From Leifsonia sp. 71-9 (lineage in GTDB: Bacteria; Actinomycetota; Actinomycetes; Actinomycetales; Microbacteriaceae): DNA of 45,207 nt. Made by a program: the position numbers and the translations under genes. Under the pieces are notes generated by a model. That model saw only the letters and a list, made by a program, of their open reading frames with translations. It was not told where the DNA came from and searched no databases. Position 1 is the stretch's first letter; each line of letters starts with the position of its first letter. This document shows, one piece after another, positions 18,216-45,207 of the stretch. The stretch covers positions 1 to 45,207 of the forward strand of contig NZ_MKVJ01000001.1 in assembly GCF_001898805.1 (NCBI RefSeq), given 5' to 3'.

Positions 18216-18222
18216 CAAGATC

Positions 18223-24607: not shown

Positions 24608-24622
24608 GCTACAAGCTATAGG
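24608..24622 (+). promoter_or_regulatory. Predicted GntR operator 1 (gntR promoter)
   Basis: GCTACAAGCTATAGG differs at two positions from the motif copy at 24722. On the minus strand it supplies a TATAGC -10-like box 35-40 bp before the gntR start, so binding would repress gntR. Confidence 0.7.
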
Positions 24623-24719: not shown

Positions 24720-24749
24720 TTGCTACATGCTATAGCAATAATGCTATCG
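24720..24749 (+). promoter_or_regulatory. Predicted GntR operator 2 (catabolic operon promoter)
   Basis: TTGCTA-N7-TAGCAA (24720-24738) contains GCTACATGCTATAGC (24722-24736), with the core palindrome TGCTATAGCA. A further half-site TGCTATCG follows at 24742-24749. TATAGC or TATCGT could be the -10 box of the operon beginning at 24834. The divergent 254-bp gap holds only this site and operator 1. Confidence 0.78.
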
Positions 24750-24833: not shown

Positions 24834-26108
24834 ATGCAGCACACCCCCGTAGTCGGCCGCCCCGTGCGGATCGCCGTCATCGGCGCCGGCAACCGCGGTC
24901 AGTCGTACGCCAGGTGGGTGCACGCCAACCCGGACCGGGCGCGCATCGTCGCCGTCGCCGACCCCCGGCCGTTCCAGCGCGGCGTGATCGCGGCGGGCGA
25001 CCCGGACGTCCGGCACTTCGAGGACTGGCGCGAGCTCGTCGCCGAACCGGAGCGGGTCGCCGATATGGTCATCGTCTCCACGCAGGACCGCCAGCACGTG
25101 GAGCCGGCGGTCGCCTGCGCCGAGCGCGGCTACGCCATCCTCATGGAGAAGCCGCTCGCCCCGACCGAGGAGGAGTCGCGCCGCATCGTCGCCGCGATCG
25201 AGTCGGCCGGCGTGCTCTTCGGCGTCTGCCACGTGATGCGGTACATGCCCTACACGGATCTGGTGAAGAGCGTCGTCGACTCGGGCGTGCTCGGCGACAT
25301 CATCAACGTGCAGCACCTGGAGCCGGTCGGCTGGTGGCACATGGCCCACTCGTACGTGCGCGGGCCGTGGCGGCGCGAAGACCTCGCCACCCCGATGCTG
25401 CTGGCCAAGTCGAGCCACGACCTGGACTGGATCCGCTACGTGACGGGCAAGCGCATCGCCGCGGTCGCGAGCTTCGGCTCCCGCCACCACTTCCGCCACG
25501 AGAACAAGCCGGCGCTGGCCGCCGACCGCTGCCTCGACTGCCCCCTCCAGGACACCTGCCCGTACGCCGCGCAGAAGCTCTACCTGCCGGTCGTGCGCGA
25601 GGAGGGCGCGGTCTGGCCGGTCACGGTGATCACCGACGACGCGACCGAGGAGGGCGTGATCGAGGCGCTCCGCACCGGCCCGTACGGGGTGTGCGTGTAC
25701 GCGGCCGACAACACGGTCGTCGACAACCAGGTCGTCGCACTCCAGTTCGAGGACGGCACCGCCGGCACCTTCACGATGACGGCCTTCAGCGAGCAGGAGC
25801 ACCGCAAGACCCAGCTCTTCGGCTCCCACGGCATGCTCGACGGCGACGGTGAGCGCGTCAGGGTCACCGACTTCCGCACCGGCGAGTCCACGGTCCACGA
25901 GACCGGGCCGACCGGGGCGGCGAACGCCGGAGGCGACCACGGCGGCGGGGACGGCGGCGTGATGAGCGCCTTCGTCGCGGCCGTCGCCGCCGGCGACCCG
26001 GACCTCATCCGGTCCGGTCCGCGCGAGTCCCTCGACAGCCACCTGGCGGTGTTCGCGGCCGAGCGCTCGCGGCACGCCGGGACGGTCGAGGCGGTCCCGC
26101 GCTACTGA
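24834..26108 (+). CDS. Gfo/Idh/MocA-family oxidoreductase with cysteine cluster
   Basis: This is an NAD(P)-dependent sugar or cyclitol dehydrogenase of 424 residues. The Rossmann motif is IAVIGAGNRGQSYARW. The EKP catalytic-lysine motif is at residues 105-107 (ILMEKPLAP). The C-terminal alpha/beta substrate domain holds HDLDWIRYVTGKR. A C233-x2-C236-x5-C242 cluster in DRCLDCPLQDTCPY, seen in one long subgroup of the family, may bind metal or stabilise the fold. It is the first gene after the GntR operator, with an AGGA ribosome site. It probably oxidises or reduces the imported sugar derivative. The exact substrate is unknown. Confidence 0.9.
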   Translation: MQHTPVVGRPVRIAVIGAGNRGQSYARWVHANPDRARIVAVADPRPFQRGVIAAGDPDVRHFEDWRELVAEPERVADMVIVSTQDRQHVEPAVACAERGYAILMEKPLAPTEEESRRIVAAIESAGVLFGVCHVMRYMPYTDLVKSVVDSGVLGDIINVQHLEPVGWWHMAHSYVRGPWRREDLATPMLLAKSSHDLDWIRYVTGKRIAAVASFGSRHHFRHENKPALAADRCLDCPLQDTCPYAAQKLYLPVVREEGAVWPVTVITDDATEEGVIEALRTGPYGVCVYAADNTVVDNQVVALQFEDGTAGTFTMTAFSEQEHRKTQLFGSHGMLDGDGERVRVTDFRTGESTVHETGPTGAANAGGDHGGGDGGVMSAFVAAVAAGDPDLIRSGPRESLDSHLAVFAAERSRHAGTVEAVPRY

Positions 26109-26167
26109 CAGCACCACTCCATCCTGCGGCACCCGCCGCGAACCCCCACCACGCACGAAGGAGCAGC

Positions 26168-27412
26168 ATGCGGTACACGAAGACGATCACGGCGGCCGCC
26201 GTGGCAGCCACGGCGGCGCTCGCGCTGGCCGGCTGCAGCGGCAGCTCCGGCGGCTCGGACGGATCGAAGAAGACCGTCACCATGTGGATCTACCCGGTGA
26301 TCGCCGACGAGGCGAAGCACAAGGGCTTCTGGGACGAGACGGTGAAGGCCTTCGAGGCCGAGCACAAGGACATCACCGTCAAGTACGAGATCTACCCCTG
26401 GGCCAACCGCGACGAGTCCCTCTCGACCGCGATCGCGGCCGGCAAGGGCCCGGACCTCGTCTACCTGATCCCGGACCAGCTCAGCACCTACCAGAAGTCG
26501 ATCGAGCCGATGGACTCCTACCTGCCGAGCGCGCAGAAGAAGGACATCCTCGACAACGTCGCCGAGTCGGTCACCATCGACGGCAAGCTGATGGCGGCGC
26601 CGATCCTCACCAGCGCGAACGCGCTCATGTGCGACGCGAAGGCGTTCGAGGCCGCGGGCGTCACCGACTACCCGAAGACCTGGGACGACCTGGAGAAGCT
26701 GGCCCCGACGTTCAAGGAGAAGGGCATCTACGTCACGCAGTACTTCGGCTCGCCGGACGTGACGCTCAACATGACCTTCTACCCGCTGCTCTGGCAGGCC
26801 GGCGGCTCCGTCTACAACAAGGACGGCAGCAAGGTCGCCTTCGACAGCACGGCCGGCACGAAGGCGCTGAGCCTGATCTCCGACTTCGCGGCCAAGGGCT
26901 ATATCGAGAAGGACCTCATCTCGACGATGCCGGCCCTCGAGCAGACGGCGCTCGCGACGAACAACGTGGCGTGCACCTGGCAGTCGGGCCCGAGCGACGT
27001 CACGTCGTTCTGGGGCGAGGACGCCATCAAGATCCTCCCGCCGCTGACCGACGAGAAGCAGGTCTCCTACGGCACGGTCGGCTCGCTGGCCATGCTGAAG
27101 GGCGCCAAGGACAAGGAGGCCGCCGGCGAGTTCGCCGCGTTCGCCACGGACGCCGAGAACTCGAAGAAGTTCGACCTCGCGTCCAACTTCTTCTCCCCGC
27201 TGAAGTCGACCGGCGAGCTGTACGCCGACGACCCGATCCAGAGCGCGATCGAGAAGACCATCCCGACCAGCAAGGTCGGCGAGCTGCAGCCGAGCGCCCG
27301 CGCCGTCATGGGCGTGCTCGCACCGGAGATCCAGGCGGCCCTGCTCGGCACGAAGACGCCGGAGCAGGCGCTGAAGGACGCGGCCGCCGCCGCTCAGCCG
27401 CTCATCAAGTGA
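26168..27412 (+). CDS. ABC transporter sugar-binding lipoprotein (CUT1 type)
   Basis: This is an extracellular solute-binding protein family 1 member of 414 residues. The lipoprotein signal peptide MRYTKTITAAAVAATAALALAGCS has lipobox LAGC, so the mature protein is membrane-anchored at Cys23. Family features include VTMWIYPV, FEAEHKDITVKYEIYPW, AIAAGKGPDLVYLIPD and the C-terminal GVLAPEIQAALLGTKTPEQALKDA. Family 1 binding proteins serve oligosaccharides or complex sugars. Two matching permeases follow. AAGGAG precedes the ATG. The 65-bp gap after it contains a strong hairpin. Confidence 0.94.
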   Translation: MRYTKTITAAAVAATAALALAGCSGSSGGSDGSKKTVTMWIYPVIADEAKHKGFWDETVKAFEAEHKDITVKYEIYPWANRDESLSTAIAAGKGPDLVYLIPDQLSTYQKSIEPMDSYLPSAQKKDILDNVAESVTIDGKLMAAPILTSANALMCDAKAFEAAGVTDYPKTWDDLEKLAPTFKEKGIYVTQYFGSPDVTLNMTFYPLLWQAGGSVYNKDGSKVAFDSTAGTKALSLISDFAAKGYIEKDLISTMPALEQTALATNNVACTWQSGPSDVTSFWGEDAIKILPPLTDEKQVSYGTVGSLAMLKGAKDKEAAGEFAAFATDAENSKKFDLASNFFSPLKSTGELYADDPIQSAIEKTIPTSKVGELQPSARAVMGVLAPEIQAALLGTKTPEQALKDAAAAAQPLIK

Positions 27413-27419
27413 CAGACGG

Positions 27420-27454
27420 GACCGGCCGGGGCGCCTCGCGCGCCCCGGCCGGTC
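27420..27454 (+). other. Hairpin between binding-protein and permease genes
   Basis: GACCGGCCGGGGCGC (27420-27434) is perfectly complementary to 27440-27454 with a 5-nt loop. It has no U-tract and lies inside the operon, 8 bp after the binding-protein stop. Comparable intercistronic stems, as in malE-malF, stabilise upstream mRNA and raise binding-protein yield relative to permeases. Confidence 0.8.
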
Positions 27455-27477
27455 CCGGGACCCGAGGAGACGCCCCC

Positions 27478-28431
27478 GTGACCACCACCCCCACCCAGCC
27501 ACGGCCGCCGGCGGTCGGCGGACGACCGGACGGCGACCGCCGCGACGGCCGCCCGCCCGGGCTGACCAAGCGCGTCCTGGCCCGCCGGGAGGCGCGGATC
27601 GCGCTGCTCTTCGTGCTGCCCGCGTTCCTGCTGTTCCTGGCCTTCCGGTTCGGCCCGGCGATCGCCGGCGTCGGCCTGAGCTTCTTCGACTACGACATCT
27701 CGGGCGAGCTCGACTGGGAGGGTCTGAAGAACTTCGAGCGGATGCTCGCCGACCCGACGTTCTGGCAGGCGTTCGGCGTGACCCTGGCCTATTCGGTCCT
27801 GGCCGTGCCGATCTCGCTCGCGCTCTCGGTCGCGATGGCGCTCGGCGTGCGCCGTGCGTTCCGCGGCTCGCGCTTCTTCCGTTCCGTGTTCTTCCTCCCG
27901 GTGATCACCTCCCTCGTGCTGGCTGGCGCCATCTTCAAGTGGATCTTCTCGACCGACGGCCCGTGGTCGGCGATCATGGCCCCGCTCGGGCTCGGCGGTT
28001 CCTGGCTCAACTCGACCGTGCTCGTCATCCCCGCCCTCGTGATCGTCGGCGTGTGGTCGCGGTTCGGCTACGGGATGCTCATCGTGATCGCCGCGCTGCA
28101 GGACGTGCCGCGCGAGCACGAGGAGGCCGCCCTGATGGACGGCGCCGGAGCGTGGAACCGCTTCCGCTACATCGTGCTGCCGCGCCTGAAGCCCACCCTG
28201 TTCTTCCTGGCAGTGATCGAGACGACGGCGTCGTTCCAGGTCTTCGACCTCGTCTACGTGATGACGCAGGGCGGTCCGGCGCACGCCAGCTACTCGCTCG
28301 TCTACATGCTCTACGACCAGGGCTTCAAGTACACCGACTACGGGTACGCCGCCGCGATCGGCGTCGCCCTCTTCGTCATGACACTCGTCGTCGCGCTCAT
28401 CCAGCGCCGCGTCATCGGGAGGCAGAAGTGA
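27478..28431 (+). CDS. ABC transporter permease, CUT1 (MalF-like)
   Basis: This is an integral membrane component of the sugar importer, with 317 residues. After a Pro/Arg-rich cytosolic N-terminus of about 40 residues there are six hydrophobic segments starting with ALLFVLPAFLLFLAF. The EAA loop, which contacts the ATPase, is EHEEAALMDGAGAWNRFRYIVLPRLKP. The GTG at 27478 follows CGAGGAGA. The gene overlaps the next permease by GTGA. No ATP-binding subunit gene is found in the window, so a shared MsmK/MsiK-type ATPase elsewhere is expected. Confidence 0.93.
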   Translation: MTTTPTQPRPPAVGGRPDGDRRDGRPPGLTKRVLARREARIALLFVLPAFLLFLAFRFGPAIAGVGLSFFDYDISGELDWEGLKNFERMLADPTFWQAFGVTLAYSVLAVPISLALSVAMALGVRRAFRGSRFFRSVFFLPVITSLVLAGAIFKWIFSTDGPWSAIMAPLGLGGSWLNSTVLVIPALVIVGVWSRFGYGMLIVIAALQDVPREHEEAALMDGAGAWNRFRYIVLPRLKPTLFFLAVIETTASFQVFDLVYVMTQGGPAHASYSLVYMLYDQGFKYTDYGYAAAIGVALFVMTLVVALIQRRVIGRQK

Positions 28432-29294
28432 CCACCGCGACCCCGCGCCTCAAGCGCGCCCGCTCCTTCCGGGCCCTCGAGCCGACGCGCGGCGGACTCG
28501 TCGTCCGCTACATCTGGCTGTCGATCGCCGCCGTCCTGTGCTTCTTCCCGTTCTACGCGATGGTGGTGCTCAGCCTGAAGCCGGGCCTCGCCGTCCAGTT
28601 CCCGCAGAGCCTGCTGCCGTGGAACCTGTCCACGGCGTCCTACGAGCAGGTGCTCGGCGGGCAGAACCTGCTGGTGTGGCTCGGCAACACGCTGATCTAC
28701 GCGATCGTCAGCGTGGTGGCGGTGCTGCTGCTGTCGGCGATGGCCGGGTACGCGTTCGCCAAGAAGCGGTTCCGCGGCAAGGAGACGATGTTCTGGTCGT
28801 TCCTCGCCATGGTGATGGTGCCCTTCCATGTGACGCTCATCCCGACCTTCATCGTGCTGGCGAAGCTCGGCGGCGTCGACACCTACTGGGGGCTCATCCT
28901 CCCGACGCTGGCGAACGCGCAGGCCGTGTTCCTGATGCGGCAGTTCATCGAGGGGCTGCCCGACGACCTGTTCGAGGCGGCACGGATCGACGGCGCGGGG
29001 GAGTTCCGCATCTTCCTGACGATCGTCCTGCCCCTGTGCAAGCCGGTGCTGGCGACGCTCGGCATCTTCATCTTCCTGTGGCACTGGAACGACTTCCTCT
29101 GGCCGTTGATCATGGCCAAGAGCTCCGACATGTGGACGCTGACCGTCGGCATCGCGTCGCTCCAGCAGCAGAACGTGCCGCTGAGCGTGATGCTGGCCGG
29201 CTCGGTCGTCGCGCTCGTCCCGATCTTCTTCGCCTACGTCGTGGCCCAGCGCTACGTGCAGGAAGGCGTCACCTCCGCGGGGATCAAGGGCTGA
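28428..29294 (+). CDS. ABC transporter permease, CUT1 (MalG-like)
   Basis: This is the second membrane subunit of the importer, with 288 residues and six transmembrane segments. WLSIAAVLCFFPFYAMVVLSLKP is the first helix. The EAA motif is DLFEAARIDGAGEFRIFLTIVLPLCKP. The C-terminus AQRYVQEGVTSAGIKG is the typical MalG-type ending. Translation is coupled to the previous permease by a GTGA overlap. It pairs with the binding lipoprotein two genes upstream. Confidence 0.94.
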   Translation: MTTATPRLKRARSFRALEPTRGGLVVRYIWLSIAAVLCFFPFYAMVVLSLKPGLAVQFPQSLLPWNLSTASYEQVLGGQNLLVWLGNTLIYAIVSVVAVLLLSAMAGYAFAKKRFRGKETMFWSFLAMVMVPFHVTLIPTFIVLAKLGGVDTYWGLILPTLANAQAVFLMRQFIEGLPDDLFEAARIDGAGEFRIFLTIVLPLCKPVLATLGIFIFLWHWNDFLWPLIMAKSSDMWTLTVGIASLQQQNVPLSVMLAGSVVALVPIFFAYVVAQRYVQEGVTSAGIKG

Positions 29295-29324
29295 CGCCCG
29301 CCCCGACCGAAGCGAAAGGCAGAC

Positions 29325-30347
29325 ATGTTCAGCAGTGAGAACGAGCTCGAAGAAGCGCTGGCCACGCCGAGCGCGGCCCTGGTGGCCGACCTCGCGACGT
29401 CGAGCGGCGACCTGGTCGTGCTCGGCGCCGGCGGCAAGATGGGCCCGAGCCTGTCGGTGCTCGCGCGCCGGGCGCTCGACGAGGCCGGGCGCGGCTCCGA
29501 CGCGGTCTACGCGGTCTCGCGGTTCTCGAGCGACGAGGCGCGCCGCCGGCTCGAGGCGGAGCGGGTGGAGGTCGTGCCCTTCGACCTGCTCTCCGACCGC
29601 GACCTGGCGGAGCTGCCGGATGCGCCGAACGTGGTGTTCATGGTGGGCGCGAAGTTCGGCGCGGCCACCAACGCCTCGTGGGCATGGGAGGTCAACGCCG
29701 CGCTGCCCGACCGCGTCGCGCGGCGTTACCGCGACAGCGCCATCACGGCGATGTCCACGGGCAACGTCTACCCCTTCGTCGCGCCAGGCTCGGGCGGCTC
29801 GGTGGAGTCGGACGTGCCGGGACCCGTCGGCGAGTACGCGATGTCGTGCCTGGGGCGCGAGCGCGTCTTCGAGTTCGGCGCCGTGACGCGCGGGACCCGG
29901 GTGTCGATCGTGCGCCTCAACTACGCCGTCGACCTGCGCTACGGCGTGCTCGCCGACATCGGGTCGACCGTGCTGTCGGGGGCGCCGGTCGATCTGACCA
30001 CCGGCGCCGTGAACGTCGTGTGGCAGGGCTATGCGAACGAGGTCGTGCTGCGGTCGCTCGGGCACGCCAGCGACGCCGTCTTCACCGTCAACCTGACCGG
30101 CCCCGAGCTGCTGAGCGTCCGCGGCATCGCGGACCGGTTCGGCGCGCTGTTCGACCGCGAGGTCTCCTTCGTGGGAGAGCCCGCGCCGTCGGCGCTGCTC
30201 AACAACGCCGGGCGCTGCTTCGAGCTGTTCGGCTACCCGACGGTGCCCGCCGGGACGCTGATCGAGTGGCAAGCGGACTGGCTTCGGGAGGGGCTGCCCA
30301 CGTCGGGCAAGCCGACCAAGTGGGCCGTGCGGGACGGGAAGTTCTGA
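29325..30347 (+). CDS. NAD-dependent epimerase/dehydratase-like protein with altered catalytic motif
   Basis: This is an extended-SDR protein of 340 residues. The Rossmann region is LVVLGAGGKMGPSLSVLARRAL (about residues 28-50). STGNVYPF provides the expected Ser/Thr region. At the catalytic site the usual YxxxK reads Y171-A-M-S-C175, so the general-base lysine is replaced by cysteine. WQGYANEVVLRSLGHA resembles the substrate-domain helix of sugar epimerases. The missing lysine suggests altered chemistry or a binding role. It starts 30 bp after the permease and overlaps the next gene (TGATG). A sugar-nucleotide role is not supported, since no transferases are nearby. Confidence 0.8.
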   Translation: MFSSENELEEALATPSAALVADLATSSGDLVVLGAGGKMGPSLSVLARRALDEAGRGSDAVYAVSRFSSDEARRRLEAERVEVVPFDLLSDRDLAELPDAPNVVFMVGAKFGAATNASWAWEVNAALPDRVARRYRDSAITAMSTGNVYPFVAPGSGGSVESDVPGPVGEYAMSCLGRERVFEFGAVTRGTRVSIVRLNYAVDLRYGVLADIGSTVLSGAPVDLTTGAVNVVWQGYANEVVLRSLGHASDAVFTVNLTGPELLSVRGIADRFGALFDREVSFVGEPAPSALLNNAGRCFELFGYPTVPAGTLIEWQADWLREGLPTSGKPTKWAVRDGKF

Positions 30348-31384
30348 TGGGCGCGGAACTCCTCGCCGAGGGCCTCGTCGTCCCGGCGCATCCCCTCGCC
30401 CTCACGGCGGAGCGCAGGCTCGACGAGCGCCGCCAGCGCGCCCTGACCCGCTACTACCTGGCGGCGGGCGCGGGCGGGATCGCCATCGCGGTGCACACGA
30501 CGCAGTTCGAGATCCACGAGCCGGAGCGCGGCCTCCTCGAGCCCGTGCTCGCGCTGACCGCCGATGTGCTCGACCGCGAGGCGGACCGCGACCTGGTCCG
30601 CATCGCGGGCGTCGTCCGACCCACCGTCCAGGCGGTCGCCGAGGCCGAGCTCGCCGCCCGGCTCGGCTACGACGCCGTGCTGCTGAGCCCGCGCCTGGCC
30701 GGGGCGACGGAGGACGCGCTGATCGAGCGCGCCCGCGCGGTGGGCGAGGTGCTGCCGGTGATCGGCTTCTACCTGCAGGAGGCGATCGGCGGTCCGGTGC
30801 TGTCGCGCGGCTTCTGGCGGCGGTTCGCCGACCTCCCCGCCGTGGTCGCCGTGAAGGCGGCGCCGTTCGATCGGTACCGCACGATCGAGCTCGTCCGCGG
30901 GGTGGGGGAGTCCGACCGCGCTGCCGATGTCGCGCTCTACACCGGCAACGACGACGCGATCGTCGCCGACCTGACCGCCGTGCACCGGGTGCGAACCGCG
31001 ACCGGCACGCGGGAGCTGCGCTTCCGCGGCGGCCTGCTCGGCCAGTGGGCCGTGGGCACGCAGGCGGCGACCGGCGTTCTCGCCCTCGCCAAGCGGGCGC
31101 AGGAGGGCGACGGCGCGGCGGCCCTGGAACTCGCCGACCTCGCCGCCGATCTGACCGACCTGAACGCGGCGGTCTTCGACCCCGCCAACGGGTTCGCGGG
31201 CGTCATCGCCGGCGTCCACGAAGTGCTTCGCCAGCAGGGGCTCCTGGAGGGCATCTGGTGCCTGGACCCGGGGGAGACGCTCTCGCCCGGGCAGGCGGAG
31301 GAGATCGAGCGGGTGCGCCTGGCCTACCCGCGGCTCAGCGACGACGCGTTCATCGCCGAGCACCGGGACGAGTGGCTGCGCTGA
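30347..31384 (+). CDS. Dihydrodipicolinate synthase (DapA)-family aldolase/lyase
   Basis: This is a TIM-barrel Schiff-base lyase of 345 residues, longer than the usual ~300 of DapA or KDG aldolase. The likely Schiff-base lysine is K170 in AVVAVKAAPFDRYRT. The active-site tyrosine is Y142 in VIGFYLQEAIGG. AGAGGIAIAVHTTQFEIHEPER is the strand-2 region with the TT phosphate- or carboxylate-binding pair. Such enzymes cleave or form 2-oxo acids such as 2-keto-3-deoxy sugar acids. It overlaps the previous and next genes by TGATG, so it works in the same pathway. Lysine synthesis is excluded by context. Confidence 0.82.
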   Translation: MGAELLAEGLVVPAHPLALTAERRLDERRQRALTRYYLAAGAGGIAIAVHTTQFEIHEPERGLLEPVLALTADVLDREADRDLVRIAGVVRPTVQAVAEAELAARLGYDAVLLSPRLAGATEDALIERARAVGEVLPVIGFYLQEAIGGPVLSRGFWRRFADLPAVVAVKAAPFDRYRTIELVRGVGESDRAADVALYTGNDDAIVADLTAVHRVRTATGTRELRFRGGLLGQWAVGTQAATGVLALAKRAQEGDGAAALELADLAADLTDLNAAVFDPANGFAGVIAGVHEVLRQQGLLEGIWCLDPGETLSPGQAEEIERVRLAYPRLSDDAFIAEHRDEWLR

Positions 31385-34249: not shown

Positions 34250-34292
34250 CCGGCGCCGCCGCCTCACCCGCCATCGATCGAACGGAGCACGC

Positions 34293-37840: not shown

Positions 37841-37858
37841 CCGAAAGGACCCTGCTCC

Positions 37859-40063
37859 ATGACCAGCTCCTCGGTTCCACCCACCGGCACCCGCCGCGGC
37901 CGTCGCTCCGACGCGGCTCCCGTTCCGGACGCGCCCCGCTCCGGCACCCGCCGCGGCCTCCTCGTCGGCCTGGGGGCCGCCGCCATCGGAGGCGTCACCG
38001 CGGTCGGCGGCCTGGGCCCGGCCGACGCCGCCACGGCCGCTGCCGTGCCCGCGACCGCCGCGGCCTCCGGCTCGCTCCGCCAGGTGCGCCTCGTGGCGGA
38101 CCTCGCGAAGGTCAAGGCCAAGGACGGCGAGATCGCCATCGCCTCCGGCTACCACCAGCCCGGCGACGTCGGCGGCCTGATCTACCGGGGCGCGTCCGGC
38201 CAGGGCTCGACGCCCAACGGCGGGACCGTGCTGGCCGGCAAGAACGGCACCGTGTGGATGCTCGTGCACCAGGGCACCGTCGAGTTCCGCCAATTCGGGA
38301 TCATGGGTCCGGACTCTCCGGCCGACGCTGCGCTGGAGGCCATGGTCGCCGACACCTCCATCGCCCGCATCGAGGGGCACACCGACCTCAACTTCGTGAA
38401 GCGCCACAAGCTGGTCCGCTCGCACCTCGAGCTCGACTTCGGCGGCCACCTCATGACGACGGAGGGCATCGAGAACGCCGGCACCGACGACCCGTTCGCC
38501 GCCGTGATGTTCTTCCAAGGCGTCCTCTCGTCCGAGACGCAGACCGCGACGCTGTCGGCGGCCATCCCGGACCTCGGCGACATCTTCGAGGTGGCGGACT
38601 CCTCCTGGTTCGCGGTCGACTCCTGGTACACGGCCGAGGTGAACGCGCTCAGCGGTCGCTGGGAGCGGGAGCTGCAGAAGCTCGTGCAGGTGACGCAGAT
38701 CGTCGACGGCACGCACATCCGCGTCGACTACAAGAACGGCTGGCCGCTGGCGAAGGGCCGCACGATCACCTGGACGCGCGTGAAGCCCGTCGAGGGCATC
38801 CGCATCGCCAACCTCGTGTTCCGCGGCAAGGGCACCGACCAGTACACCGGGTCGCACCCGATCGCGTTCGAGTTCGCGGTGCGCTGCGACGTGGAGAACA
38901 TCGTCGGCTCGCTGACCTTCTGGCCGCTGATCATGCGGCGCTGGAACACCTTCTACTCCACGATCGGCTGCACGCTCTCGAACCCGACGTCCGTCACCTA
39001 CGGCGGCGCGGGCTACCTGACGCAGCAGATCTACTGCCTCTACGGCTACGTGGCCAACTGCCACACCTCCAACGCCCGGCACCTCAACGACTTCACCGCG
39101 AGCGCGTACTCGATGGTCGAGAACTGCCACGGCGACGGGGACGACGAGGGCCCGTTCGTGACGCACGGGCAGTACGAGCACGACCTCACCTACACCGGCA
39201 ACTCGGGCCTGATGACGTTCGCCAACTCCGGTGCGGCGTGGGGCTCGGCGGCCAAGCGCATCACCGTGCGCAAGCACATCTGCTCGTGGTTCGTCGCGCG
39301 GGTGCGGATCACCGACCTGACGCTCGAGGACGTGCGCGTCATCGGCAAGCCCAGCCTGGCCGGGTCCGGGATGCTGTGGATCAACGCCGACGGCGCTCAG
39401 CTTCGCGGCTGCACCGCCGACAGCACCCTGGTGATCACCCAGTCGTCGACGGCCTCCACTCGCCCGACCGTCATCCGCGACTCCTGGTTCGGCTTCGCCG
39501 CGCCGGGCACCCTCACCGACGCGAGCGTGAAGGTGCCCGTGACCTTCGAGAACACGACGCTCGACAACGTCGGCGGCATGAAGATCCTGGGCGCGGGCGA
39601 GGTCACGTTCCGCGGGTCGACGCTCACGGCGAAGGCCGGGTCGGACGCGGTGCAGACGGCCTCGGCGCGCACCCGCCTCACCGGCACGAGGCTCGACGAC
39701 GTCTCGCTGCAGGCGGCCGGGACCGCGGAGCAGACCATCGAGGTGACGGCGGGCAGCGTCGTCACCGGCGCGGGCGGAACGGCCATCGGGCGCGCCGGAG
39801 ACAAGCCCCTCACCCTCCTGCTGGCCGACAGCTCGTTCGCCCGCTCGGAGGCCGGAGGCAAGCACATCTCGCTCACCGGCGGCACGAACCACTACCGCGC
39901 CACCGGCTGCCGCTTCGAGGGCGGCGCGCTCGAGCTCACGTCCGGCGGGTTCGGCGGGTCGTCGACCCTGCTGCACACCGTCAACGTGGAAAGCTCGGTG
40001 ACGCGCAGCGGATTCCCTGCGGACTCCGCGCGCGTCGTGACCGCCGGCAACCTCACCGTCTGA
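37859..40063 (+). CDS. Tat-exported right-handed beta-helix protein, copy B
   Basis: This is a 734-residue paralogue of the preceding gene over its full length. It has the same order of blocks: GGTVLAGKNGTVWMLVHQGTVEFRQFG, YGGAGYLTQQIYCLYG (about residue 381), NARHLNDFTASAY, VENCHGDGDDE, THGQYEHDLTY. The N-terminus is extended and contains GTRRG twice, the second one opening the Tat signal TRRGLLVGLGAAAIGG. Central blocks are nearly identical between copies while the C-terminal third differs, suggesting shared catalysis with different surface specificity. AAAGGA precedes the ATG. It is followed 48 bp later by an SDR gene. Confidence 0.78.
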   Translation: MTSSSVPPTGTRRGRRSDAAPVPDAPRSGTRRGLLVGLGAAAIGGVTAVGGLGPADAATAAAVPATAAASGSLRQVRLVADLAKVKAKDGEIAIASGYHQPGDVGGLIYRGASGQGSTPNGGTVLAGKNGTVWMLVHQGTVEFRQFGIMGPDSPADAALEAMVADTSIARIEGHTDLNFVKRHKLVRSHLELDFGGHLMTTEGIENAGTDDPFAAVMFFQGVLSSETQTATLSAAIPDLGDIFEVADSSWFAVDSWYTAEVNALSGRWERELQKLVQVTQIVDGTHIRVDYKNGWPLAKGRTITWTRVKPVEGIRIANLVFRGKGTDQYTGSHPIAFEFAVRCDVENIVGSLTFWPLIMRRWNTFYSTIGCTLSNPTSVTYGGAGYLTQQIYCLYGYVANCHTSNARHLNDFTASAYSMVENCHGDGDDEGPFVTHGQYEHDLTYTGNSGLMTFANSGAAWGSAAKRITVRKHICSWFVARVRITDLTLEDVRVIGKPSLAGSGMLWINADGAQLRGCTADSTLVITQSSTASTRPTVIRDSWFGFAAPGTLTDASVKVPVTFENTTLDNVGGMKILGAGEVTFRGSTLTAKAGSDAVQTASARTRLTGTRLDDVSLQAAGTAEQTIEVTAGSVVTGAGGTAIGRAGDKPLTLLLADSSFARSEAGGKHISLTGGTNHYRATGCRFEGGALELTSGGFGGSSTLLHTVNVESSVTRSGFPADSARVVTAGNLTV

Positions 40064-40110
40064 ATCACCGCCTGAACCGCCGCACCACGGCACCACTGGA
40101 AGGAACCCCC

Positions 40111-40902
40111 ATGCCCGCATCCGCATCCGAATCCGCCGCCGCTCCCGGCGCGCCCGTCGCCCTCGTCACCGGGGGCGCGGCCGGCATCGGCTGGGAGATC
40201 GGCAAGCGACTGGTGGCCGACGGCTACCGCGTCGTCGCCGCCGACCTCGTGCCGGGGCTGACCGCGACCGAATCGGAGGCCGGCATCGTGCACCGTCGGC
40301 TCGACGTCACGGACCCGGCGGACGTCGAGGCCGTGTTCGGCGGCGTCGTCGCCGAGTTCGGGAGGCTGGATGCGGTCGTCAACAACGCCGGCATCCAGCG
40401 CCACCGCGCGATCGAGGACCTCGCGTGGGACGAGTGGAAGGCCGTCGTCGACGTCAACCTGCACGGCGTCTTCCTCTGCCTCCAGGTCGCCGGCCGGCAC
40501 ATGCTGGCGGCCGGCGGCGGCCGGATCGTCAACATCTCGTCGATCTCGTCCCGCGGCTCGGCGGGCCGGGCGCCGTACGCCTCGACCAAGGCGGCGGTGA
40601 TCGGACTGACCGCGACGGCGGGCGCGGAGTGGGCGGCGCGGGGCGTGCGCGTCAACGCGGTCGCGCCGGGGTACGTCGACACGGGCGTCTTCCGGCAGGG
40701 CGTCGCGGCCGGGACGCTGAGCGAGGAGACCATCCTGGCCCGCATCCCGGCCGGGCGGCTCGCGCAGGCGGCCGAGATCGCCGCGACGGTGTCGTTCCTC
40801 CTCTCCGACCAGGCGAGCTACTTCGCCGGGCAGACCCTCTACGCCGACGGCGGCTTCATGGTCGACTACGGCGTTCCGCTCGCGTCGGTCCCGAAGCCGT
40901 GA
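40111..40902 (+). CDS. SDR-family sugar/sugar-acid dehydrogenase
   Basis: This is a classical SDR of 263 residues with TGGAAGIGWEIGKRL (cofactor), NNAGIQRH, NISSISS and YASTKAAV (catalytic Ser, Tyr, Lys) and the C-terminal GQTLYADGGFMVDYG typical of glucose- or deoxygluconate-dehydrogenase-like members. A short disordered Ala/Ser-rich N-terminus precedes the fold. It precedes and overlaps (GTGA) the enolase-superfamily dehydratase, so it most likely oxidises the sugar or its acid in the same route. AAGGAA precedes the ATG. Confidence 0.88.
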   Translation: MPASASESAAAPGAPVALVTGGAAGIGWEIGKRLVADGYRVVAADLVPGLTATESEAGIVHRRLDVTDPADVEAVFGGVVAEFGRLDAVVNNAGIQRHRAIEDLAWDEWKAVVDVNLHGVFLCLQVAGRHMLAAGGGRIVNISSISSRGSAGRAPYASTKAAVIGLTATAGAEWAARGVRVNAVAPGYVDTGVFRQGVAAGTLSEETILARIPAGRLAQAAEIAATVSFLLSDQASYFAGQTLYADGGFMVDYGVPLASVPKP

Positions 40903-41981
40903 CGCGGGAGCTGCGCACCGCGACGACCGCGCTGCCCCTGCCCGCCCCGCTCCAGCTCGGTGCGATGACGGTCACGCGGCGGGAGTTCGCTGCGGTCCAG
41001 GTCGAGCAGGACGGCGAGACCGGCATCGCCTACGGGCTCACCCGCGAGGCGCCGATGGCGGAGATTGTCGAGCGACTGATCGCCCCGCACGTGCTCGCGG
41101 GCGACCTCGATCCGGAGGCGCTCTGGGAGCGGGCGTTCCGCGGCAGCGCGATCGTCGGCCGGGTCGGTCTGGTCCGGCGCGCGCTGGGGCTCGTGGATGT
41201 CGCGCTGTGGGATCTGCACGCGCGGCTCCTCGGCGAACCGGTGTGGAGCCTCCTGGGCTCCGGTGACGCGCCGCGGCCGACCATGCTCGTCGCGGCCTAT
41301 CCGACGCCCGGCCGCACCGTCGAGAGCCTCGTCGAGGAGGTCGTCGGGCAGGCGCGGGACGGCTGGCCGCAGGTCAAGATCTCCCGCTCGCCCGACCGCG
41401 CCCTCATGCGCGACCTGCTCGCCGAGCTCGACCGCGAGCTGCCGGCCGGCTGCGGGCTCGTCGTCGACGTCGGCTTCGGCTGGGGTGACGCCGACGAGGC
41501 GCTGGACGAGCTCGCCGACTGGGGGAGTCCGCGGCTCGCCTGGCTGGAGGATCCCTTGCTCCCGGAGGACGTCGCCGGCTGCGCGCGCATCCGCCGGGAG
41601 ACCGGACTGACGGTCGCGGTCGGCGACGAGGTCACCGACCCGACCGTCCTGCAGGCTCTCGCCGAGGGCGGAGGCATCGACGTGGCGCGACTCGATGTCG
41701 TCGCCCTCGGCGGGATCACCCCGTCGCGGGCGTTCCTCGCCTGGGCGGCCGACCGCGGCCTCCCCGTCTCGTGCCACATCGGCCCGGAGATCAGCGTGCA
41801 CCTGCCCGGCGTGCAGGTCGAGACGTTCGCGCGCGGACCGCGGCCGAACCCGTACGACCCGTCGCCCGTGCTCGTCACGGGAGGCCCGTCGTTCTCCGGC
41901 GGATTCGCGACCCCGCCGGCCGGGTCCGGGCTGGGCTTCGGCTTCGCGCCCGGTACGTTCGATTTCGGGAGGTCGTCATGA
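40899..41981 (+). CDS. Enolase-superfamily sugar-acid dehydratase (mandelate racemase type)
   Basis: This is a 360-residue Mg2+ enzyme with the capping domain and modified TIM barrel of the enolase superfamily. Metal ligands are D190 (VVDVGFGW), E217 (WLEDPLL) and D243 or E244 (VGDEV). The His-Asp dyad is D266 (RLDVVALGG) with H293 (VSCHIGPE). On strand 2 the usual KxK reads K160-I-S162, leaving one lysine. One-base sites with the His-Asp dyad are found in acid-sugar dehydratases such as L-rhamnonate dehydratase. The likely reaction is dehydration of an aldonate to a 2-keto-3-deoxy acid. It overlaps both neighbours (GTGA, ATGA). Confidence 0.87.
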   Translation: MTRELRTATTALPLPAPLQLGAMTVTRREFAAVQVEQDGETGIAYGLTREAPMAEIVERLIAPHVLAGDLDPEALWERAFRGSAIVGRVGLVRRALGLVDVALWDLHARLLGEPVWSLLGSGDAPRPTMLVAAYPTPGRTVESLVEEVVGQARDGWPQVKISRSPDRALMRDLLAELDRELPAGCGLVVDVGFGWGDADEALDELADWGSPRLAWLEDPLLPEDVAGCARIRRETGLTVAVGDEVTDPTVLQALAEGGGIDVARLDVVALGGITPSRAFLAWAADRGLPVSCHIGPEISVHLPGVQVETFARGPRPNPYDPSPVLVTGGPSFSGGFATPPAGSGLGFGFAPGTFDFGRSS

Positions 41982-42781
41982 GCAGCAGTGCCGCGCAGCA
42001 GCGCAGCGTCGTCGTCACCGGGAGCGGCAAGGGCATCGGCCGCGGGATCGCCGAGCGGCTCACCGCCGACGGCTGGATCGTCGTCGGCGTCGAGCGCTCC
42101 GCCTCCGACACCGTCGAGGCGGGGATCTGCGCGGCGGTCGTCCGCGGCGACTCCGTCGAGCGGGACATCCACACGCGGGCGGCCGACCGGGCGATGGAGC
42201 TCGCCCCGCTCGCCGGCTGGGTGAACAACGCCGGCATCACCGTCCGCACGCCGCTGCACGCCCTCGACGAGCGGGAGGTGCGGCGGGTGGTCGAGATCAA
42301 CGGCCTCGGCTACCTGTGGGGCTGCTCGGCCGCCGTGACGGCGTTCACCGGGCAGACGTCGGGAGGCGCGATCGTGAACGTGGGCTCCATCCACGGCCGC
42401 GCGAGCTTCGTCGACCACGCGGCGTACGAGTTCACCAAGGGCGGCATCGACGCGCTCACCCGCAGCGTCGCCGTGACCTACGGCCCGTTCGGCATCCGCG
42501 CGAACACGGTCGCGCCGGGCGGTGTGCGCACACCGCACCTCGACGCCCAGATCGCGAACGCCGCTGACCCCGAGGCGGAGGAGCGCGGGCTCGCCGAGGG
42601 TCCGCCGCTGCGCCGCATCGCCACGGTCGCCGAGGTCGCGTCGCTCACGGCGTACCTGCTCGGCGACGAGGCGTCCTACATCAGCGGCCAGTCCATCGCG
42701 GTGGACGGCGCCTGGACGGCCTCCTTCGGCCGCCCGGGAGCCGACGCCGCGCTGGCCGAGCGGTACGGGCTCGGCCGCTGA
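41978..42781 (+). CDS. SDR-family dehydrogenase, candidate 2-keto-3-deoxy-acid dehydrogenase
   Basis: This is a classical SDR of 267 residues with TGSGKGIGRGIAERL, NNAGITVRTPL, VNVGSIHG (catalytic Ser) and YEFTKGGIDALTRS (Tyr/Lys). The C-terminal GQSIAVDGAWTASFG completes the fold. It immediately follows the sugar-acid dehydratase (ATGA overlap). By analogy with fuconate and rhamnonate routes it is a candidate for oxidising a 2-keto-3-deoxy acid to the 2,4-diketo acid. That assignment rests on position, not on residues. It is the last gene of the plus-strand run and meets the minus-strand SnoaL gene 18 bp later. Confidence 0.86.
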   Translation: MSSSAAQQRSVVVTGSGKGIGRGIAERLTADGWIVVGVERSASDTVEAGICAAVVRGDSVERDIHTRAADRAMELAPLAGWVNNAGITVRTPLHALDEREVRRVVEINGLGYLWGCSAAVTAFTGQTSGGAIVNVGSIHGRASFVDHAAYEFTKGGIDALTRSVAVTYGPFGIRANTVAPGGVRTPHLDAQIANAADPEAEERGLAEGPPLRRIATVAEVASLTAYLLGDEASYISGQSIAVDGAWTASFGRPGADAALAERYGLGR

Positions 42782-42799
42782 CGCGGCCGGGCCCGACGC

Positions 42800-43135
42800 T
42801 CAGGCCTTGACCATCGACGCGCGCCGGATCAGGCCGTCGCGCACGTCGAAGGTCGCGATCGTCTCGGTCGCCACGCCGTCGCGCACCACGTACTCCTGCG
42901 CGACCACCCACCGCTCGCCGAAGAGCGCGTGCGTCGCGACGCTGCAGCTGAGCCCGGGGTACGAGAGGCGGTCGGCGTAGAAGGCGCGGATGGCGTCCCG
43001 CCCCGCCAGGGGAGCGTCTCCGACGCCGGTCACCACGGCATCCTCGGCATAGGTGGCGACGAAGGCGTCGAGGTCGTGGGCGTTGAACGCGTCGACCTGC
43101 TCGGTGACGACGCGGAGCGCATCCAGTGCGGTCAT
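42800..43135 (-). CDS. SnoaL-like/NTF2-fold small protein
   Basis: This is a 111-residue cone-shaped alpha+beta protein of the NTF2 superfamily. The N-terminal helix pair VTEQVDAFNAHDLDAFVATYAEDAVV, GRDAIRAFYADRL and the strand ERWVVAQEYVVRDG are characteristic. Members include SnoaL cyclases, ketosteroid isomerases and many of unknown function. A possible isomerase or dehydratase role in the pathway is inference. AGGAGG precedes the ATG. It is downstream of and co-directional with the SDR at 43182-43931, 46 bp away, and so belongs to the same GntR-controlled transcript. Confidence 0.8.
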   Translation of the reverse strand: MTALDALRVVTEQVDAFNAHDLDAFVATYAEDAVVTGVGDAPLAGRDAIRAFYADRLSYPGLSCSVATHALFGERWVVAQEYVVRDGVATETIATFDVRDGLIRRASMVKA

Positions 43136-43181
43136 GGGGATCCTCCTGAAGAGATCGAGTGGATGGGCGCGGACGACGATG

Positions 43182-43931
43182 TCAGTCGATCCGGACGCCG
43201 CCGTTGACGTCGTAGGTGGCGCCGGTGACGAACCCGGCGCGCTCCGAGGCCAGCGACGCGATCGTCCAGGCCACGTCGGCCGGCGTGCCGAACCGTCCGA
43301 GCGGGATGGAGGACTCGAGCGCGTCGTGCCCCTCCTGGGTCAGCTGGTCGGTGATCGCGCTCGTCACGGGGCCGGGCGTGACCGCGTTGACCCGGATGCC
43401 CTCGGCCGCCAGATGCCGGGCGAAGCTGCGGGTGAGGGCGAGCAGTGCGCCCTTGCTGGCGGCGTAGTGCATGCCCGTCTGGAGCGCGCCGACCTGGCCC
43501 GCGATCGACGACAGGTTGACCACGCTGCGGTCGCCGGATGCGGCGCGCAGCAGCGGCAGCATCCCGCGGGTGAGCAGGAAGGTGCCGCGCACGTTCGTCT
43601 CCATGACGGAGTCCCACTCGTCGAGCTCGATGTCGTCGTAGTGGCGGTAGGGGCACACGCCGCCGTTGTTGATCAGCACGTGCAGTTCGCCCCAGGCGTC
43701 GGCGACCTCGGCGACGAGGGCGGACACGGAGTCGGGGGAGCGGAGGTCGAGCCGGCTGACGCGGACCTCGGCGGCTCCCGCGGCGCGGCACTCCGCGGCG
43801 ACGCGCTCGGCGGCGGCACCGCCGGAGGTGAAGGTGAGCCAGACGGCGTGGCCCGCGGAGGCGAGTTCGACGGCGGTGGCGGATCCGATGCCGGAGCTGG
43901 CGCCGGTGATGAGGCTGCGTCGGAGAGTCAT
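43182..43931 (-). CDS. SDR-family oxidoreductase
   Basis: This is a 249-residue classical SDR with TGASSGIGSATAVEL, LNLSSIAGQ-type catalytic Ser (NLSSIAG), YAASKGALLAL (Tyr/Lys) and the C-terminal TGATYDVNGGVRID. The usual NNAG reads NNGG. The ATG at 43931 lies directly after a GCTATAGC-containing operator half (43935-43948), whose TATAGC is a plausible -10 box, implying a leaderless transcript under GntR control. It is divergent from the hydroxyacid dehydrogenase at 44010. Role in the pathway: a further sugar or polyol oxidation, substrate unknown. Confidence 0.87.
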   Translation of the reverse strand: MTLRRSLITGASSGIGSATAVELASAGHAVWLTFTSGGAAAERVAAECRAAGAAEVRVSRLDLRSPDSVSALVAEVADAWGELHVLINNGGVCPYRHYDDIELDEWDSVMETNVRGTFLLTRGMLPLLRAASGDRSVVNLSSIAGQVGALQTGMHYAASKGALLALTRSFARHLAAEGIRVNAVTPGPVTSAITDQLTQEGHDALESSIPLGRFGTPADVAWTIASLASERAGFVTGATYDVNGGVRID

Positions 43932-43934
43932 GGG

Positions 43935-44005
43935 AAAACGCTATAGCAAGAACGTGCCGGACGGCGAGCGGACTGGCCTGAAAACGCTAGATGCTATAGC
44001 GTTTT
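43935..44005 (+). promoter_or_regulatory. Predicted GntR operator 3: symmetrical divergent promoter
   Basis: AAAACGCTATAGCA (43935-43948) and its exact reverse complement (43992-44005) frame the divergent gap. The right copy extends to GCTAGATGCTATAGC (43986-44000), one mismatch from the motif at 24722, inside AAAACGCTA-N7-TAGCGTTTT. In each direction TGCTATAGC looks like an extended -10 box 7-9 nt before the start codon, so bound repressor would cover both promoters. Confidence 0.8.
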
Positions 44006-44009
44006 GGGC

Positions 44010-44987
44010 ATGACCTCCGATCTCGTTGTGATCACCGACTGCGATCTGCCCGGCACCGCCGCCGACGACGCGCTCACCGCCGCCGGCCTCCGGGTGCGCC
44101 GAGCCGCCTCGCCGTCGGCCGACGACATCGTCGCCGCCGCGGCCGACGCCTCCGCCCTCATCGTGCAGTGGGCGCCGATCACGGGGGAGTTGCTCGACCG
44201 TCTCCCGAACCTGCGCTTCATCAGCCGGCTCGGGATCGGCTACGACATGATCGACGTCGCGGCGGCGACCGAGCGCGGCATCCTCGTGGCCAACACCCCC
44301 GCCTACTGCCTCGACGAGGTGGCGACCCACACGCTGGCCATGATCCTCGCCCTCGGCCGCGGGCTCGTCTCCTACGATCGCGCCGTGCGCGCCGGGGAAT
44401 GGTCGGCCGTGGATGCGCGCCCGATGGGCTTCCGCCCGTCGGCGACCACGGTCTCCGTCGTCGGGTACGGCCGGATCGGGTCGCTCGTCGCGCGCCGCTG
44501 CGCCGCCCTCGGCTTCCACGTCGTCGTCGCCGACCCGATGGTGCCCGACGCCGACATCCTGGCCGACGGTCTCGAACCGGCCCCGCTGGCCGAGGCCGTC
44601 GCGCGCGCGGACGTGCTCACCCTCCACGCGCCGCTCACCGACGCCACACGGCACCTGGTCGACAGCGCCGCGATCGCGACGATGAAGCCGAACGCCGTGA
44701 TCGTCAACACCTGCCGCGGACCGCTCGTCGACGAGGAGGCGCTCGCCGGCGCGCTCGAGGCCGGCCGCCTGGCCGGCGCCGCGATCGACGTGTTCGAGAA
44801 CGAGCCGCTGCCGGCGTCGAGCCGGCTGCGCGCGATCGACAGCGTGCTGCTCACCCCCCACGCCGCCTGGTACTCGCCGGAGGCGCTCGTCGACCTGCCG
44901 TTGCACGCCGCCGACAACATCATCGACCACTGGGCCGGCCGCGCCGTCCCGGCGATCGTCAACCGGGTCGCCGCCGCGGCCGACTGA
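44010..44987 (+). CDS. 2-hydroxyacid dehydrogenase (CtBP-like / phosphoglycerate dehydrogenase-like)
   Basis: This is an NAD-dependent D-2-hydroxyacid dehydrogenase of 325 residues. The cofactor motif VSVVGYGRIGSLVARRC is near residue 150. The catalytic residues are Arg in NTCRGPLVDE, Glu in DVFENEPLP and His in LLTPHAAWYSPE. The AAWYS segment is typical of the C-terminal-binding-protein-like subgroup. The ATG lies 9 nt past the TATAGC box of the operator, so the mRNA is probably leaderless. It is followed 11 bp later by an FAH-type hydrolase. It may reduce the glyoxylate, pyruvate or hydroxy-oxo acid released by that hydrolase. Confidence 0.9.
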   Translation: MTSDLVVITDCDLPGTAADDALTAAGLRVRRAASPSADDIVAAAADASALIVQWAPITGELLDRLPNLRFISRLGIGYDMIDVAAATERGILVANTPAYCLDEVATHTLAMILALGRGLVSYDRAVRAGEWSAVDARPMGFRPSATTVSVVGYGRIGSLVARRCAALGFHVVVADPMVPDADILADGLEPAPLAEAVARADVLTLHAPLTDATRHLVDSAAIATMKPNAVIVNTCRGPLVDEEALAGALEAGRLAGAAIDVFENEPLPASSRLRAIDSVLLTPHAAWYSPEALVDLPLHAADNIIDHWAGRAVPAIVNRVAAAAD

Positions 44988-44998
44988 GAGGACCTCCG

Positions 44999-45207
44999 AT
45001 GCGATTCCTGCGCCTCGGCCCCGCGGGGGCCGAACGTCCGTTCGTCCGCGCCGACGGCCGGCTCTACGAGCTCGACCCCGTCGCCCCGGACATCGACCCG
45101 GCATTCTTCGCCTCCGACGGCGTCGCGCGCACCGCGGCCGCCCTCGCGGCGGGCGAACTGACCGAGGCCGGGCCGGGGGCCGATGCCCTGCGCATCGGAC
45201 CCCCGGT
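44999..45207 (+). CDS. FAH-family hydrolase, N-terminal part (runs off window)
   Basis: This is the first 69 residues of a fumarylacetoacetate hydrolase-family protein. The start MRFLRLGPAGAERPFVRADGRLYELDP and the following FFASDGVARTAAAL match the N-terminal domain seen in 2,4-diketo-3-deoxy-fuconate or rhamnonate hydrolases and related FAH enzymes. The catalytic metal-binding domain lies beyond the window. AGAGGA precedes the ATG, 11 bp after the dehydrogenase. If the assignment holds, it would cleave a 2,4-diketo acid into pyruvate and a hydroxyacid. Confidence 0.82.
   Translation, partial: MRFLRLGPAGAERPFVRADGRLYELDPVAPDIDPAFFASDGVARTAAALAAGELTEAGPGADALRIGPP

Follow-up and report, generated by a model that had tools for sequence, protein, structure and literature searches.

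Non-phosphorylative breakdown of sugars by the diketo-acid pathway, referred to as route III, is known for L-rhamnose (LRA), L-fucose (Fuc) and pentoses in Herbaspirillum huttiense in the accounts of PMC6336799 and PMC11199699. Here we set beside it a gene island of Leifsonia sp. 71-9, found in the first 45,207 nucleotides of contig NZ_MKVJ01000001.1 (referred to throughout as the window), which begins at position 23,884, runs past the window end by about 1.6 kb and is apparently a single GntR-type regulon. The DapA-like protein it encodes is 97% identical to that of Leifsonia aquatica, which would place the genome near that species.

The island is real, conserved and apparently co-regulated, and consists of two modules that are also found apart. 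Module A comprises a CUT1 importer, Gfo/Idh proteins, a couple formed by an epimerase-like short-chain dehydrogenase/reductase (SDR), Epi, and a DapA-like lyase, a D-2-hydroxyacid dehydrogenase (HADH) and beta-helix (bh), depolymerase-like proteins. Module B comprises a ceramidase-fold protein (Cer), SDR1, an enolase-superfamily dehydratase (Enol), SDR2, a SnoaL-like protein with SDR3, a second HADH (HADH2) and an FAH-family hydrolase. With moderate confidence we read the whole as a GntR-controlled catabolic island of two modules, by which a polymer would be cut, the product imported and a sugar acid converted to pyruvate without phosphorylation.

Conservation and modularity of the island

The full order from the GntR gene to FAH is kept in two further Leifsonia genomes (G324 and G321) and, as put together from two overlapping loci (L015 and L122), in a third (G299). 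Relatives further afield were compared by tblastn of the window proteins against the loci of the best 80 of at least 270 DapA-like relatives (two of these, L091 and L093, are the same contig). A separate set of ten genomes was chosen for module A, most of them also having module B or bh genes; seven Microbacterium and one Leifsonia of these were compared (G306 and G308 were left out). The order Cer-SDR1-Enol-SDR2-SnoaL-SDR3-HADH2 is identical in all seven Microbacterium regions, with FAH in six (no match in L123) and a few kb of other genes inserted within module B in L119 and L123; since these genomes were chosen for holding module A, seven out of seven gives no frequency estimate. Across 299 Microbacteriaceae genomes, DapA-like matches occur in five (E 1e-15), Epi in eight, including those five (1e-30), Enol in five (1e-40), Cer in eight (1e-30) and bhB in one (1e-30); two of the Enol matches are just 33-34% identical, leaving three likely orthologues. 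Epi is present in 5 of the 28 genomes of the genus, in which the island is thus accessory.

Module A has its own order in Streptomyces-type loci (Streptomyces, Embleya and Actinacidiphila), which, stretch length permitting, runs bh, Gfo1, SBP, PermA, PermB, Epi, DapA, HADH1. Fifteen such loci carry after HADH1 an FAH homologue that matches the C-terminal part of FAH from the window at 68-72% identity, while SDR1, Enol and SDR2 have no tblastn match in them within the stretches compared; FAH is therefore not exclusive to the SDR-enolase half. Module B in turn occurs without a DapA-like or Epi match in 2 of the 299 Microbacteriaceae genomes (G028 and G130). This separability would be expected if the two modules served different substrates and in Leifsonia had nothing in common beyond a regulator and their neighbourhood, as would the arrangement of several Microbacterium loci, in which a gene of the ROK-regulator cluster (F6, the cluster to which the annotated ROK regulator of L094 belongs) stands divergent to module A and GntR lies at module B. 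We regard this as somewhat unlikely: both modules share one gene order and common operator-like sites in four Leifsonia (G000, G299, G321 and G324), they are still neighbours in the Microbacterium regions examined, and FAH homologues accompany both.

A preliminary description of this DNA had considered two converging routes possible; the division into two separable modules fits this, and FAH, which it placed in the SDR-dehydratase part, occurs with both. The comparison of neighbourhoods across Microbacteriaceae that it called for finds both modules together and in conserved order in Leifsonia, and module B also without Epi or DapA-like matches in two genomes.

Gene content and operator-like sites

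Genes were called from reading frames and GC content by codon position; their names come from searches of Pfam, NCBIfam and the PDB. In order of position, the island contains:

23884..24579, minus strand: GntR/FCD-family transcriptional regulator, divergent to the operon (Pfam GntR 5.8e-21, FCD 9e-24)
24608..24622, plus strand: operator-like site GCTACAAGCTATAGG, 1 mismatch, immediately upstream of the regulator gene
24722..24736, plus strand: operator-like dyad GCTACATGCTATAGC, upstream of the first operon gene
24834..26108, plus strand: Gfo/Idh/MocA oxidoreductase 1 (Gfo1; Pfam GFO_IDH_MocA 3.6e-21)
26168..27412, plus strand: CUT1-type solute-binding protein (SBP; Pfam SBP_bac_1 3.2e-33)
27478..28431, plus strand: ABC permease A (PermA; Pfam BPD_transp_1 6e-17, longer reading frame scanned)
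28428..29294, plus strand: ABC permease B (PermB; Pfam BPD_transp_1 1.5e-16, longer reading frame scanned)
29325..30347, plus strand: epimerase-like extended SDR (Epi; weak Pfam match 0.0022, alignment, profile match to TerB)
30347..31384, plus strand: DapA-like class I aldolase/lyase (weak Pfam match 0.0028, under the gathering score; alignment, profile match to DapA)
31384..32397, plus strand: D-2-hydroxyacid dehydrogenase 1 (HADH1; Pfam 2-Hacid_dh_C 3.5e-41)
32397..33329, plus strand: Gfo/Idh-like protein 2 (Gfo2; Pfam 1.1e-5, under the gathering score)
33326..34249, plus strand: GNAT acetyltransferase-like protein (Pfam Acetyltransf_9 5.3e-15)
34293..35672, plus strand: ceramidase-fold metal hydrolase (Cer), single catalytic domain (Pfam under the gathering score; fold check)
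35669..37840, plus strand: beta-helix protein A (bhA), no Pfam match, 50% identical to bhB, RR-type leader read from sequence
37859..40063, plus strand: beta-helix protein B (bhB), depolymerase-like fold, no Pfam match (AlphaFold2 model)
40111..40902, plus strand: SDR1, proposed 2-keto-3-deoxy-acid 4-dehydrogenase (Arg153 and Arg211 invariant)
40899..41981, plus strand: enolase-superfamily acid-sugar dehydratase (Enol), own subgroup (Pfam MR_MLE_C 1.7e-26)
41978..42781, plus strand: SDR2, candidate aldose 1-dehydrogenase (Pfam adh_short_C2 5.2e-40)
42800..43135, minus strand: SnoaL-like protein (Pfam SnoaL_2 2.6e-14), same position in relatives
43182..43931, minus strand: SDR3 (Pfam adh_short_C2 8.3e-58)
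43986..44000, plus strand: operator-like dyad GCTAGATGCTATAGC, between SDR3 and HADH2
44010..44987, plus strand: D-2-hydroxyacid dehydrogenase 2 (HADH2; Pfam 2-Hacid_dh_C 3.4e-56, scanned from an upstream TTG at 44004)
44999..45207, plus strand: FAH-family diketo-acid hydrolase, N-terminal portion, cut off by the window end after about 70 codons (runs to contig position 45744)
Contig 45754-46815, minus strand, beyond the window: SMP-30 lactonase (PF08450 7.7e-60)

All the components named in the preliminary description were recovered in their places by Pfam, NCBIfam, PDB and structure checks; its inventory, sound in content and position, lacked the GntR/FCD regulator, the SnoaL-like gene and the SMP-30 lactonase beyond the window. 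The remainder of FAH lies on the same contig (L005) and is broken by a short N run; such runs past 45207 break the FAH gene and an alpha/beta-hydrolase gene, which are uninterrupted in the relatives G324 and L119.

A 15-bp operator pattern, GCTANANGCTATAGC, was derived from the island's own intergenic spaces. Allowing up to three mismatches it has nine matches in the window (two palindromic places count on both strands) against 2.08 +/- 1.38 expected, a number reached by none of 100 shuffles; with at most one mismatch it occurs at three places in 4,475,219 bases, all in the island (24608, 24722 and 43986). Because the pattern came from this island, the independent evidence is the conservation of sites in other genomes, and operator-like sites do recur in front of the corresponding genes in other genera (Microbacterium besides Leifsonia). 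The dyad of the first operon gene is also present in L015, G321, G324, L140 and L141, and that between SDR3 and HADH2 in seven of eight regions (L116, L117, L118, L119, L121, L123 and L122, not L120) as well as in G321, G324 and L141. The GntR protein would control the island through the predicted dyad. The single regulon proposed earlier is thus backed by the three close sites, all within the island, and by a gene order kept in three other Leifsonia.

Module B and the diketo-acid route

As read from its protein families, the enzyme set of module B follows route III logic and is a variant of the known route. SDR1 may share a carboxylate-binding feature with an enzyme of this kind. In L-2-keto-3-deoxyfuconate (L-KDF) dehydrogenase, the account in PMC11199699 assigns Arg148, Arg192 and Arg214 to a carboxylate clamp and puts Ser137/Tyr151 close to the C4 keto oxygen. 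SDR1 has Arg153 at Tyr-3 and Arg211 ahead of a Gly-Arg motif, both in 13/13 genomes (alignment of 20 rows, seven of which repeat a genome), and Arg195 in 12 of the 13 (Gln in L120); the second and third arginines were placed against the published numbering by a gapped reading of the alignment. Five aligned FabG chains all have Gln at the Arg153 place, and Gln (four) or Ala (one) at the Arg211 place; the Arg195 place is also Arg in three of the five, so Arg195 counts for little. SDR1 has Tyr where L-KDF dehydrogenase has Thr183 in the same account (PMC11199699).

The likeness extends far enough for the locus to be considered a plain L-fucose/L-rhamnose locus of the LRA/Fuc kind, its extra genes serving transport and accessory functions. 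The set of SDR, SMP-30, enolase, SDR and FAH is that of the LRA/Fuc route, the Streptomyces FAH homologue (the window's own FAH being cut at the edge) has as its best PDB match the L-rhamnose-route enzyme 8gsr, L-2,4-diketo-3-deoxyrhamnonate hydrolase (4.5e-60), and the matches of SDR3 include the L-rhamnose dehydrogenase Lra1. We nevertheless hold this to be unlikely, since the NCBIfam cut-offs are missed: Enol scores 55.8 bits against 393 for L-rhamnonate dehydratase, SDR3 159.5 against 400 for RhamDHLra1, and the Streptomyces FAH homologue 265.8 of 500 for the diketo-rhamnonate hydrolase (NF053535, its best family). The best NCBIfam family of Enol is L-talarate/galactarate, at 90.6 bits of 500, and in the PDB search rhamnonate dehydratase (2.6e-14) and L-fuconate dehydratase (5.5e-13) stand behind 21 and 29 better rows. 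SDR2 reaches 160.9 bits of 215 for a glucose 1-dehydrogenase subfamily, and an Lra1-type 1-dehydrogenase is not in the best 25 NCBIfam families of SDR1 or SDR2. Two D-2-hydroxyacid dehydrogenases would also be unexpected for an L-lactate product. As the L-rhamnose-route family cut-offs tested were not reached, we assign no sugar and do not file the island as an L-rhamnose/L-fucose pathway.

A lactonase gene is present by family match, with predicted activity. SMP-30 directly follows FAH in five of the seven Microbacterium regions (L116, the genome of L104, and L117, L119, L120 and L121), an SMP-30-type match follows HADH2 in L123 and L141, a more distant one is found in L005, L122 and L132, and three of the four Leifsonia have the gene. 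The preliminary description had recognised the logic of the L-fucose/L-rhamnose diketo routes in the SDR-dehydratase-SDR-FAH part, which agrees with the gene content. Its statement that no lactonase is present was wrong, an edge effect of a gene that sits just past the window end and in many relatives comes after FAH or HADH2; the absence of a sugar kinase among the window genes scanned stands. The known KDG/KDPG routes were set aside, as the scanned window genes showed neither a sugar kinase nor a KDPG aldolase.

The ceramidase-fold protein

A predicted structure confirms the neutral ceramidase catalytic-domain fold for Cer, which scores 25.7 bits against a gathering score of 32.1 for Pfam PF04734; the newer PF04734.19 is assigned to some close homologues. 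His103, His208, Glu385 and Tyr416, invariant in 15 sequences, stand opposite His97, His204, Glu411 and Tyr448 of the Pseudomonas aeruginosa enzyme (2zws), which we take to be its Zn ligands; all four equivalences were counted along the alignment, those of Glu385 and Tyr416 in a second, insignificant stretch. Matches of at least 43% identity are close to sugar-acid genes in every locus examined, and homologues elsewhere are near IlvD/EDD dehydratases. Cer was also considered as the sole lactonase, a role made less likely by the many module B loci in which SMP-30 comes after FAH or HADH2; SMP-30-type matches (32-37% identity) lie in the same stretch as Cer in L156, L157 and L158, not in L154 and L155. 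The Cer homologue of L156 has a PfkB kinase and a member of the KDPG/KHG aldolase family beside it.

Neutral ceramidases are amidases, and Cer could accordingly remove an N-acyl group in a pathway degrading an N-acylated sugar of bacterial exopolysaccharide. GNAT genes adjoin the Epi-DapA couple on three plasmids, in Aquisphaera, Tistrella and Sulfitobacter (cluster F27, versus F31 in Microbacterium module A), and locus L039 holds a class-III aminotransferase, an amidohydrolase and an SIS_2 protein. Such an amino-sugar route seems improbable to us, given that Cer belongs with the aldonate-type enzymes of module B and lies elsewhere near the IlvD/EDD dehydratases, that the proteins scanned there include no recognisable aminotransferase, and that the Cer match of L039 is just 29% identical.

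Module A and the Epi-DapA couple

In 73 of the 80 loci the gene immediately preceding the DapA-like gene is Epi; of the other seven, two begin at a contig end, three have Epi farther upstream (one partly masked) and two have no Epi. The loci include Actinomycetota, Acidobacteria, Planctomycetes, Omnitrophota, Hydrogenedentota, KSB1 and Elusimicrobia metagenome-assembled genomes. Both genes are also close together on plasmids of Paenibacillus, Mesobacillus, Nitratireductor, Tistrella and Sulfitobacter, with one gene between them in the last three.

The DapA-like protein scores 16.9 bits against Pfam PF00701 (gathering score 22.1) and has no close relative among solved structures in PDB sequence and profile searches; the profile search gives DapA (1xky) at 1.4e-7. 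His50-Thr51-Thr52, Tyr142, Lys170 and a Gly-Asn-Asp-Asp motif are invariant in an alignment of 27 sequences, and by motif order we take Lys170 to be the Schiff-base lysine and Tyr142 its partner tyrosine. The invariant residues and the profile match make a Schiff-base enzyme acting on a 2-keto acid likely. Epi matches the TerB oxidoreductase (6d2v, 1.8e-9), which makes it an extended SDR, and in the alignment carries a residue other than Lys at the presumed position of the usual catalytic Lys. Gfo1 has its best PDB matches in 3c1a and 6o15, and also matches glucuronide-3-dehydrogenase (1.9e-12).

TerB and its partner TerC/EchC reportedly carry out a two-enzyme reductive dehydration. This pair was dropped as a model for Epi-DapA, DatC, a relative of EchC labelled limonene-1,2-epoxide hydrolase in PMC9379647, not being DapA-like. 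We found no described function for the Epi-DapA reaction in the open PMC literature, and nothing there joining three of DapA family, epimerase, Gfo/Idh/MocA, ceramidase and catabolic cluster. The module A half and Cer are thus without described function as far as we could find, in keeping with the earlier statement that this half has no counterpart in the fucose and rhamnose routes.

Several loci show the couple or Epi in other company. In three Microbacteriaceae (L159, L160 and L161, of G048, G205 and G026) Epi occurs without a DapA-like match and with an FAH-family match 0.1 to 3 kb off, and L159 and L160 have an ABC system whose binding protein, as read from sequence, resembles the NMT1/TauA type. 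These loci suggest a second use of the same SDR, and in both settings Epi may pair with an enzyme cleaving C-C bonds of keto acids. On Glaciihabitans and Rhodococcus plasmids (L099 and L102) the two genes of the couple are swapped; the same stretch carries genes for a CoA-transferase, an enoyl-CoA hydratase and an FAD oxidoreductase, and the couple there possibly acts on a different substrate. Genes of one sequence cluster, which in L103 bears the annotation L-serine ammonia-lyase, adjoin the couple in L103, L088 and L038. Two of these loci, L103 and L088, hold a further DapA-like gene as well, together with a gene of M20-peptidase type (so annotated in L103, assigned in L088 via clustering). 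Large beta-propeller-like proteins (SGL/Kelch/PQQ matches) are encoded in the region of the couple in Streptomyces, Paenibacillus and Mesobacillus (L094, L095 and L100).

Beta-helix proteins

bhB is predicted to be a right-handed beta-helix (AlphaFold2, pLDDT 82), and its model matches phage depolymerases and polysaccharide lyases (Foldseek and VIA). By sequence the beta-helix proteins have no PDB relative, a profile search giving one chance-level match at 0.3. Among 7991 candidates scored, 508 homologues were found at E <= 0.001, and the organism-named entries among the 120 listed are Actinomycetota; precomputed Pfam annotation of homologues, where there is any, is PF27114 alone, and the NCBI label is 'peptidase C14'. 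Judged by fold, bhA and bhB are candidates for new enzymes that cleave exopolysaccharides, and their RR-type leader reads as an export signal.

Proposed pathway and points against it

We infer all substrates and step directions of the catabolic course proposed here. The presumably exported bhA and bhB would cleave a polysaccharide outside the cell, probably a bacterial or an acidic one, and the CUT1 importer would take up the cleavage product, to be processed in the cytoplasm by the Gfo/Idh proteins and the Epi/DapA-like couple. SDR2 or SDR3 would oxidise the sugar at C1, the SMP-30 lactonase, perhaps also Cer, would open the lactone, and Enol would form the 2-keto-3-deoxy acid. SDR1 would then oxidise the C4 hydroxyl and FAH would cleave the resulting 2,4-diketo acid to yield pyruvate plus a hydroxy acid, which HADH2 may oxidise or recycle.

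Several observations weigh against this two-module catabolic course. A control pattern, the operator read backwards, has ten genome matches, more than the three of the operator pattern, so that the pattern itself is not enriched and the co-location of all three sites is the point. No module B enzyme tested reaches an NCBIfam cut-off, Enol is nearer to uncharacterised racemase-like proteins and L-talarate/galactarate dehydratase than to L-rhamnonate/L-fuconate dehydratase, and it is guesswork which of the SDRs serves as the 1-dehydrogenase. The substrates of HADH-family enzymes are D-2-hydroxy acids, a poor fit to the L-lactate of the L-rhamnose/L-fucose routes. SMP-30 is on the opposite strand and was not found in G321 or L118, nor was an SMP-30-type match in L133/L134 or L140. 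In G130, HADH2 is followed by SMP-30 with no FAH match in the 9.1 kb contig, and G028 has no HADH2, FAH or GntR match within 19.9 kb. Gfo2 and GNAT diverge fast (57% and 50% identity in G321), so their roles may be peripheral.

More tentatively, and with rather less than even confidence, single-domain Cer-type proteins could form an unrecognised class of sugar-lactone/sugar-acyl hydrolases for oxidative aldonate pathways, with the Epi/DapA-like couple as an undescribed cross-phylum catabolic unit feeding them.

Outside the island, the window contains at 14796-15563 a further FAH-family gene, its N-terminus Rv2993c-like, which closely precedes a class I tRNA synthetase gene (E/Q type), and at 18348-20732, after a tRNA-Gln gene (18144-18216), a large protein with three cell-wall-binding CW_binding_2 stretches.

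Comparison with known systems

The island offers a testable enzyme set for sugar breakdown in common actinobacteria and an enolase subgroup to assign; Cer would give the ceramidase fold a concrete role other than in lipid metabolism, and Epi-DapA is a recurring gene pair whose reaction we did not find described. With the LRA/Fuc systems of route III it shares the SDR-type dehydrogenases, lactonase, acid-sugar dehydratase and FAH-family protein, and possibly the clamp arginines in SDR1, but differs in its enolase subgroup and missed equivalog cut-offs; it adds Cer, SnoaL, a third SDR and a D-2-hydroxyacid dehydrogenase, and in Leifsonia is joined with the import/Epi-DapA module. Compared with neutral ceramidase (2zws), Cer lacks the C-terminal domain (459 versus 630 residues, 18% identity) and has no leader that can be read by eye at its start. 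By the predicted fold of bhB, the bh proteins resemble the right-handed beta-helix phage capsule depolymerases and polysaccharide lyases (7w1c, 9k4a, 4ru5 and 8ja4), from which they differ in being bacterial, with an RR-type leader and 9-15% identity. The DapA-like protein has the Lys, Tyr and Thr-Thr of the DapA/N-acetylneuraminate lyase class I aldolases in the expected order, and is set apart from them by its near-fixed pairing with an epimerase-like SDR.

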